64,000 nt of DNA, taken from positions 2,170,001-2,234,000 of the forward strand of contig NC_014414.1 of assembly GCF_000152825.2 (NCBI RefSeq), read 5' to 3'. The position numbers and the translations under genes are program-made. The notes under the pieces are model-generated. The model did not search any database, was not told the origin of the DNA, and saw only the letters and a program-made list of their open reading frames with translations. The stretch comes from Parvularcula bermudensis HTCC2503. Lineage in GTDB: Bacteria > Pseudomonadota > Alphaproteobacteria > Caulobacterales > Parvularculaceae. Every line of letters starts with the position of its first letter. Position 1 is the stretch's first letter. Below are positions 1,936 through 37,438 of the stretch, piece by piece.

Positions 1936-1964
1936 TGGGGGGAAGAGATTTCCTCTTCCCCCCA
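1936..1964 (-). terminator. strong hairpin after hsp20
   Basis: A 12-bp perfect stem (TGGGGGGAAGAG paired with CTCTTCCCCCCA) with a 5-nt loop lies 20 bp past the hsp20 stop codon. On the minus strand it is followed by AATTTC, not a long T-run, so termination is likely but not textbook. Confidence 0.6.
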
Positions 1965-2451: not shown

Positions 2452-2540
2452 GTCATCCTCGTTGTGAGCAATAACCAACGATCTTCCCTCCCATGCGGCG
2501 AGGGGGATCGGTCAGACCATAATAGTCCTGACAGGGCGCA
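2452..2540 (-). promoter_or_regulatory. putative ROSE-type RNA thermometer in hsp20 leader
   Basis: The minus-strand leader can fold into successive hairpins. The last (2456-2471) pairs TTGCTC with GAGGA around an ACAAC loop and sequesters the Shine-Dalgarno. This is the UUGCU/AGGA arrangement with an unpaired or non-canonical G opposite G that defines ROSE elements of alphaproteobacterial small heat shock genes. Upstream hairpins include CGATC..CCCTC paired with GAGGG..GATCG (2479-2510). The assignment rests on motif, position and gene identity; no folding energy was computed. Confidence 0.55.
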
Positions 2541-2649
2541 TGTGTGGATAAGTCCTGGGATTTCAAGAGTGGCTGATCTCGGCTTCCGACGAAAACGCCT
2601 TCATTCACCGGCAGAGGCAAGCTAGGAAGGCAGGAGAGGAGAGTCCCCC

Positions 2650-35962: not shown

Positions 35963-37438
35963 ATGGCCCTTTCCAATAGACCGGCGACCGATCGTCATTC
36001 GCTGTTTCAGGCGAATGTTCTCGCCCTGCGTTTCACTCAATTGCCCAACGCCCTGTGGCACCCGCAAGAGGCGGAGAGGGTGGGCCTCGACCCCCAGCTC
36101 ATCCATCTCAATCACGCGGCGCTGCCGGCGGTGGGACTGATGGCCGCGGCGGACCGCACGGCGCTGACCCGCCTTCTGGCCGGTCATGAGGCGTCCGCCC
36201 AGACTGACGCGCCCAGATCCTTTGCGACGGTCTATGCGGGCCATCAATTCGGCCATTTCGTCCCCCAGCTTGGCGATGGACGGGCGATCACCATCGCCGA
36301 AGGCGTGGGGCGCGACGGCCCCTTTGAGCTGCAATTGAAAGGGGCGGGGCGGACGCCCTTTTCCCGGTTCGGGGACGGCCGGGCGGTCCTGCGATCGGTC
36401 ATTCGGGAGTATCTCGCATCCGAACATATGGCGGCCCTCGGCGTGCCGACGACCCGCGCGCTCTCTATCGTGGCCAGTCATGAGGGAGTCCAGCGAGAGA
36501 CCCTTGAGCCGGGCGCCGTGATGGCGCGCTTTGCCCCGACCCATGTGCGCTTTGGCCATTTTGAGTACTTCCATCACCGGGGAGAGACTGCCCATGTCAA
36601 AGCCCTTGCGGATTGGGTCATTGGGGAATTCGACACCGACCTTGCGGATAGCGCCGACCCTTACGGCCAGTTCTTCGATCGGGTTGTTGAGCGGACCGCG
36701 CATCTATGCGCAAAATGGCAGGCGGTCGGCTTCGCCCATGGCGTGCTCAACACCGATAATATGTCGATCCTGGGGCTGACTATAGATTACGGTCCCTATG
36801 GTTTTCTCGACCGCTACGACCCGAACTTTATCTGCAATCACTCCGACCACCAGGGGCGATATGCCTTTGGGCGTCAGCCGGAGATCGTGTTCTGGAATCT
36901 CCGCGCGCTGGCTGTGGCCCTCTCCTCCCTGGTCCCGGTCGAGCGCCTGGTCCAAGGGCTCGAGCGCTTCGGTCCTCAATTCGACGAGGGATGGCGGGCG
37001 GCCTATGGCCCGAAATTCGGGATGGAGACAGCGCAGCCCGAGGATGGGCCGCTCCTGGTGGATTTCCTCACCGGATTGCGGACCCTTGGCGCGGATTATC
37101 CCACTAGTTTCCAGGCGCTGACCCGCTGGATTGAGGGCGAAGGGGAGCTGCCGCCCTTTGACGGCGCAGGGGAGTGGGGCGAGCGATGGCGGGAGAGGGG
37201 CCTCGACCCCGCACAGGCAGCAAAGGTCGCTGAGCGCGCCAACCCCGCGATTACCTTACGCAATTGGGTCGCCGAAACCGCGATTCGCGCTGTGGAGAGA
37301 GATCAAGACCTTGTCTTTTTCGATCGTCTTTTTAATGCGCTCACAGCACCTTTTGAGGAATTACCTGAAGTTCTTGCGCCTCTCGCCGGCCCACCGCCCC
37401 CCGAACTTGCCGGCCTCGCAGTGTCCTGCTCCTCATAA
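35963..37438 (+). CDS. selO: SelO/YdiU-family protein adenylyltransferase
   Basis: Pseudokinase-fold enzyme that AMPylates Ser/Thr/Tyr of target proteins under oxidative stress in characterised members. 491 residues. FATVYAGHQFGHFVPQLGDGRA and LQLKGAGRTPFSRFGDGRAVLRS hold the nucleotide-binding region; HGVLNTDNMSILGLTIDYGPYGFLD holds the catalytic/metal Asn and Asp. The C-terminus is SCSS, the Cys replacing the selenocysteine of animal SelO. It is transcribed away from the M20 gene with a 52-bp spacer. Confidence 0.95.
   Translation: MALSNRPATDRHSLFQANVLALRFTQLPNALWHPQEAERVGLDPQLIHLNHAALPAVGLMAAADRTALTRLLAGHEASAQTDAPRSFATVYAGHQFGHFVPQLGDGRAITIAEGVGRDGPFELQLKGAGRTPFSRFGDGRAVLRSVIREYLASEHMAALGVPTTRALSIVASHEGVQRETLEPGAVMARFAPTHVRFGHFEYFHHRGETAHVKALADWVIGEFDTDLADSADPYGQFFDRVVERTAHLCAKWQAVGFAHGVLNTDNMSILGLTIDYGPYGFLDRYDPNFICNHSDHQGRYAFGRQPEIVFWNLRALAVALSSLVPVERLVQGLERFGPQFDEGWRAAYGPKFGMETAQPEDGPLLVDFLTGLRTLGADYPTSFQALTRWIEGEGELPPFDGAGEWGERWRERGLDPAQAAKVAERANPAITLRNWVAETAIRAVERDQDLVFFDRLFNALTAPFEELPEVLAPLAGPPPPELAGLAVSCSS

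Follow-up and report, generated by a model that had tools for sequence, protein, structure and literature searches.

A probable ROSE-type RNA thermometer in the hsp20 leader of Parvularcula bermudensis, and ROSE-type hairpins at rpoH in other Alphaproteobacteria

Passages of three reports (PMC3669281, PMC4166951, PMC13104619) define ROSE elements by a U(U/C)GCU sequence that pairs with the Shine–Dalgarno (SD) sequence in the 3′-proximal hairpin of a leader, and by an unpaired G facing the SD. They further describe leaders at least ∼60 nt long that form two to four stem-loops, a position before a small heat-shock gene, and temperature-dependent translation and melting. Passages of PMC3669281 and PMC4166951 give 'more than 40' published ROSE-type leaders from alpha- and gammaproteobacteria, so the element described here, in front of hsp20 of Parvularcula bermudensis HTCC2503, belongs to an already known class and is not a new one. 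A search of open-access papers found none naming both Parvularcula and a ROSE element. Outside small heat-shock genes, a ROSE element is described at Pseudomonas rhlA in part of PMC13104619.

The two-hairpin ROSE-like leader of Pseudomonas ibpA, as described in part of PMC3669281, resembles the P. bermudensis leader in its length of ∼60 nt, its stable first hairpin, its short SD-sensing hairpin and an AUG lying outside the stem. The two differ in that Pseudomonas belongs to another proteobacterial class and that the P. bermudensis leader gains a third hairpin if an RpoH-like promoter is used. Classical ROSE, as in Bradyrhizobium hspA ROSE1 (RF00435), has three to four hairpins according to a passage of PMC3669281, compared with three here, or two with the shorter leader, and the RF00435 model gives no match to our leader. 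The E. coli ibpA thermometer (ROSE_2, RF01832) shares gene type and principle, while RF01832 is without a match in the P. bermudensis genome. In fourU thermometers, too, a short U-rich stretch masks the SD, but no run of four U faces AGGA here, and both UUGCU and the bulged G are characteristic of ROSE.

The hsp20 leader and its predicted fold

The DNA analysed is a stretch of 64,000 nt of P. bermudensis (the window). On its minus strand, hsp20 (1984–2451) encodes a small heat-shock protein of the IbpA/HspA type with 155 aa (Pfam PF00011, E 1.5e-19), and no second HSP20 gene was found in the 2,902,643-base single-contig genome. Named relatives matched by Hsp20 include Parvularcula, Aquisalinus and Marinicaulis. 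Downstream of the gene, a consensus scan gives a probable intrinsic terminator with a 13-pair stem (1936–1964, minus strand). Because the divergent plus-strand open reading frame (ORF) starts only at 2650, the region from 2452 to 2649 appears to be intergenic.

The 3′ end of the leader reads ...GUUAUUGCUCACAACGAGGAUGAC-AUG, with the hsp20 start codon at 2451–2449 (minus strand). Immediately before it lies the putative thermosensing hairpin (2452–2475, minus strand), composed of GUUAUUGCUC (2475–2466), the loop ACAAC (2465–2461) and GAGGAUGAC (2460–2452). It is part of the minimum-energy structure, shows covariation among relatives and was recovered by RNAalifold from an alignment that excludes the window. 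Nine pairs join GUUAUU-G-CUC to GAG-GAUGAC, and G 2469 alone is unpaired. The anti-SD sequence, here UUGCU (2467–2471, minus strand), contains this G and pairs with the SD GAGGA (2456–2460, minus strand). The first-pass annotation had proposed a minus-strand hairpin TTGCTC-ACAAC-GAGGA covering the hsp20 SD, with a G opposite a G; the hairpin is where it was placed, and the G appears as a bulge in the energy models. The stem is longer than had been claimed, since beneath the SD/anti-SD core it continues with four further pairs (GUUA/UGAC) that were absent from that description.

Two promoters are predicted. A putative RpoH-type promoter (2536–2567, minus strand) consists of CTTGAAA (2567–2561), a gap of 14 nt and CACACATGCGC (2546–2536), the second box being weak (CACACAT). 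A [CG]TTG[AC] box located 100–139 nt 5′ of the start and followed, at the same constant 14-nt gap, by a C-rich second box is present in all ten genus loci listed; this pair looks like the RpoH promoters of Alphaproteobacteria. The pattern occurs at 19 listed places genome-wide versus 5 for its reverse, a difference that we did not count as evidence. A consensus scan alone gives an alternative sigma-70-like promoter, TCCACA-18-TATTAT (2519–2548, minus strand), with a start near 2512. A transcription start inside the hairpin region, raised earlier as an objection, would leave the leader too short; either predicted promoter would instead give a leader of ∼60–80 nt that includes the whole sensing hairpin and carries two or three stems.

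Folded from 2532, the leader forms three hairpins (2532–2511, 2510–2479 and 2475–2452), so that the multi-stem arrangement first suggested for it is borne out by two predicted hairpins 5′ of the ROSE hairpin. Hairpin I, GUCAG...CUGAC (2511–2532, minus strand), would be transcribed only from the RpoH-like promoter; hairpin II is formed by CGAUC.CCCUC...GAGGGAAGAUCG (2479–2510, minus strand). The fold reaches −30.7 kcal/mol, compared with −23.96 ± 3.15 for shuffled sequences (z −2.14; 4 of 200 shuffles as good). The minimum-energy structure differs when a few extra 5′ bases are included (95-nt leader). Of 122 alphaproteobacterial leaders folded with 85 nt, only 77 have core pairs whose probability in the energy models exceeds 0.5; within the family, 25 of 52 do. 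Truncation of the P. bermudensis leader at 2500, within hairpin II, lets a competing GUUG/CAAC helix lower pairing of the ROSE core at 37 °C from 0.89 to 0.51, which suggests that hairpin II shields the sensor from this misfolding, as computed for the P. bermudensis leader.

Computed mean openness of the SD is 0.05 at 25 °C, 0.18 at 42 °C and 0.39 at 55 °C. Over the range proposed at the outset, 25 to 42 °C, the model thus opens the SD only gradually, and melting is still incomplete at the upper end. If the unpaired G is removed in silico, the energy of the short hairpin fragment at 37 °C drops from −7.1 to −10.9 kcal/mol, a gain in stability of 3.8 kcal/mol. The effect points the same way in Pseudomonas: there, expression falls when the hairpin is made more stable by deleting single bases, as described in part of PMC3669281.

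On the evidence of its sequence and position, its predicted fold, its rarity against shuffles and, decisively, its conservation and covariation in relatives, we prefer, with a probability of roughly 0.91, to read the hsp20 leader as a ROSE-type RNA thermometer, most likely of the zipper type and controlling translation. The structural definition of ROSE, together with covariation in relatives, bears out the thermometer reading of the first-pass annotation: the U(U/C)GCU sequence pairs with the SD in the 3′-proximal hairpin, and a PF00011 gene follows. At growth temperature, the 3′-proximal hairpin would pair GAGGA with UUGCUC, so that ribosomes would bind poorly. The unpaired G and the U–G pairs would keep the stem weak enough to melt gradually on warming, allowing hsp20 to be translated, and the hairpin would re-form on cooling. 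One or two stable upstream hairpins may prevent the sensor from misfolding, and transcription, probably from the RpoH-type promoter, would provide a second heat input.

Conservation, chance and competing explanations

From the family, 60 genomes were drawn; Hsp20 matched 54 of them, at 55 places in all, and the 54 loci left after removal of one partial match include that of the window. In every one of these hsp20 loci T[TC]GCT precedes AG[GA]A (AGRA) at most 45 nt from the start, and the anti-SD U(U/C)GCU is thus kept in 54 of 54. Together with 92 other loci the set comprises 146 (two of 14 Rfam loci were without an Hsp20 match and were excluded), and 145 parse as the ROSE motif, the exception (L065) having TCGCT but AGGG. 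Among 122 distinct alphaproteobacterial leaders, the U/C–G/A pair is kept in every one (shuffles: mean 107.6, 0 of 2,000 as high), occurring as C–G in 65, as U–G in 30, as U–A in 27 and never as C–A. The two pairs below this variable pair are kept in 118 and 114 of the 122, versus 62.5 and 72.8 in shuffles, and their types change while pairing is kept; where the register was ambiguous the most-paired one was chosen, a slight bias toward pairing in these counts.

A MAFFT alignment of 34 leaders that excludes the window gave a similar picture. In it, 87.3% of the cells are paired versus 75.3%, and the covariation value is 0.437 versus 0.241, with none of 500 shuffles as high; versions of the structure slid along the alignment reach at most 60.9% paired, with lower covariation too. 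The count of double-change pairs in this alignment does not exceed chance (195 of 500 shuffles reach it). RNAalifold recovers the hairpin with the bulged G from it unprompted.

When the 90-nt leader was dinucleotide-shuffled, 1 of 20,000 versions passed a combined test for the motif and its pairs, defined after the motif had been seen; of the 102 window ATGs preceded by an SD-like sequence, 1 passed, namely that of hsp20 itself. Chance complementarity without function would find some comfort in the fact that SD hairpins are common. At 25 °C, hsp20 ranks only sixth among 26 window genes for a closed SD, so low SD accessibility is in itself unremarkable and does not discriminate. The shuffle test, the conservation and the covariation all counter such an origin; provided that the alignments are right, conservation already refutes it, and we give it hardly any credence. 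A two-state switch, in which UCGUUG would pair with CAACGA when hot and release most of the SD, is the lowest-energy state of the short fragment from 47 °C upwards, and truncating the leader at 2500, within hairpin II, brings the GUUG/CAAC helix to 0.41 at 37 °C. With hairpin II present, that helix stays at or below 0.12 at 42 °C, and the pairing is not evident by eye in congener leaders, which makes the switch highly improbable.

Heat control might also be purely transcriptional, through RpoH, the hairpin merely fixing a low rate of translation. In its favour are the RpoH-like boxes, whose spacing is the same in 10 of 10 genus loci, and the modest computed opening of the SD by 42 °C. A static hairpin, however, would not be expected to keep a weak point, the G in U(U/C)GCU facing the SD, in 145 of 146 loci, and the similarly built leaders of Pseudomonas ibpA have been proven to act as thermometers, as described in part of PMC3669281; we consider RpoH-only control improbable. 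The most serious competitor, still unlikely in our view, is that the leader mainly binds Hsp20/IbpA, which would repress its own translation and sense temperature indirectly through its titration by aggregates. In E. coli, IbpA represses its own translation via the 5′ UTR, and the authors expect the same in alphaproteobacteria from conserved residues, as stated in part of PMC10474464. Such feedback would be compatible with a thermometer; yet melting alone accounts for the bulged-G geometry, and IbpA feedback has no need of the same hairpin being found before rpoH (see below).

Across the genome, TTGCT..AGGA..ATG occurs at 15 listed places, and, of those other than the hsp20 leader, none of the seven that were inspected is a convincing second thermometer leader. 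The sequence TTGCTTGAGAAAGGATATATG lies just 5′ of an ORF in the same genome that, from its sequence, we take to be glyA-like (G000:C1:1407151–1407171; L153 352–372); this could be chance.

Detection of ROSE-type leaders by covariance models

The first-pass annotation had proposed a search with the ROSE family models of Rfam. Neither RF00435 (gathering threshold 45 bits) nor RF01832 (65 bits) matches anything in the window or the genome, even at E 10, which is the outcome that the annotation had named as speaking against its reading. A covariance model built from the window-free 34-leader alignment (R1), with no rpoH leader in its training set, does find the leader: in a search of the 2.9-Mb genome it ranks first (24.0 bits, E 0.005), and with filters off it is the top match within the window. 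The second-best match within the window (36185–36241, minus strand; 13.3 bits, E 0.17) is probably chance. The second place in the genome (17.0 bits, E 0.58; G000:C1:2037209–2037249, L158 1501–1541) ends at the start of an ORF that we take, from its sequence, to be homoserine-dehydrogenase-like, and we treated the match as chance. No rpoH gene is among the sub-threshold R1 places of this genome.

The Rfam negative says little, because at cut-off the Rfam ROSE models matched none of ten Bradyrhizobium/Rhodopseudomonas hsp20 loci and RF00435 passed its cut-off in none of 240 alphaproteobacterial genomes. At E≤0.01, RF00435 has matches in 14 of the 240. Its sub-threshold matches end at the hsp20 start in 5 of 26 family genomes, congeners included, with 36.3 bits (G038), 30.0 (G002), 28.6 (G014), 28.3 (G023) and 22.5 (G016). 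The RF00435 model, or its 45-bit threshold, looks too strict for Alphaproteobacteria. R1 gives matches at E≤0.05 in 97 of 230 alphaproteobacterial genomes, compared with 14 of 240 for RF00435, none over its cut-off. This suggests that the scarcity of annotated ROSE elements in Alphaproteobacteria, the hsp20 thermometer missed here among them, is largely a problem of model and threshold.

Among the R1 places listed, 99 were classified, leaving out the window and four hsp20 loci already in the sample. Eighty-three stand before HSP20 genes, five before a sigma factor of the rpoH type, and 11 before neither or could not be assigned, four of these being places where no ORF was found; the HSP20 profile used for this classification included 12 of the same proteins. 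One strong ROSE-type hairpin, with 31.4 bits, precedes a 61-aa ORF, MIQLNEAYRPADD... (G125:C1:57460–57495; L182/L260).

ROSE-type hairpins at rpoH

One of the five rpoH-type places was checked against NCBIfam and matched rpoH_proteo with 330.4 bits (cut-off 323.1). In the family to which that genome belongs, here the first family, 54 of 55 genomes gave a match, and the 30 best rpoH loci were examined (L261–L290). R1 matches at E≤0.005 in 27 of these, two more have E 0.08 and one has none; a ROSE-type hairpin at rpoH, or at a small ORF upstream of it, is thus present in 29 of the best 30 loci, two of them weak. In a second family, all 21 orthologues examined from one genus (Azospirillum-type, L291–L311) carry an R1 match, and nine other rpoH loci examined in that family gave none. 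DNA similarity identifies the genus as Azospirillum, nine of ten matched plasmid records being Azospirillum, six of the nine with a gene annotated rpoH; in A. lipoferum 4B the R1 match lies at the rpoH start. A third group, from another order, has the hairpin before rpoH in 3 of 3 genomes (L321–L323). Across 28 rpoH hairpins, 96.6% of the cells pair, versus at most 59.3% when the structure is slid. With few double changes, the covariation falls short of that for hsp20. Among the open-access papers listed by our searches, none was found to report ROSE at rpoH.

At 18 of the 29 first-family loci (L263–L272, L277, L278, L280, L282, L284, L285, L287, L288), the hairpin lies at the ATG of an ORF of 7–12 codons (nine codons in 13 of the 18), whose stop is 53–88 nt from the rpoH start; several of these ORFs end in PG-stop. 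The model pairs the rpoH SD with the end of the small ORF at a probability of at least 0.5 in 8 of the 18 loci and below this in the other ten. Shuffling the letters of the small ORF gives pairing as strong as that observed in anything from 0 to 43 of 60 trials, according to the locus. Where other loci have CCCGG/CCGGG (small-ORF end/rpoH SD), one has CCTGG/CCAGG.

In leaders of this kind, heat would start translation of the small ORF that bears the ROSE hairpin, and in part of the family the moving ribosome would break the pairing between the CCCGG at its end and the rpoH SD, CCGGGAG, so that rpoH would be triggered by coupling. We offer this thermometer-gated translational coupling as a hypothesis for part of the first family only, because pairing between the small ORF and the rpoH SD is predicted in only some of the loci and the shuffles are variable. 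More broadly, position, conservation and partial pair changes at rpoH incline us slightly towards the view that ROSE is a general heat-sensing module of Alphaproteobacteria that would control rpoH in several lineages, in one family through coupling to an upstream ORF. Since some Alphaproteobacteria bear a ROSE-type hairpin on rpoH itself or on the small ORF that precedes it, the rise of RpoH on heating in this class becomes directly testable.
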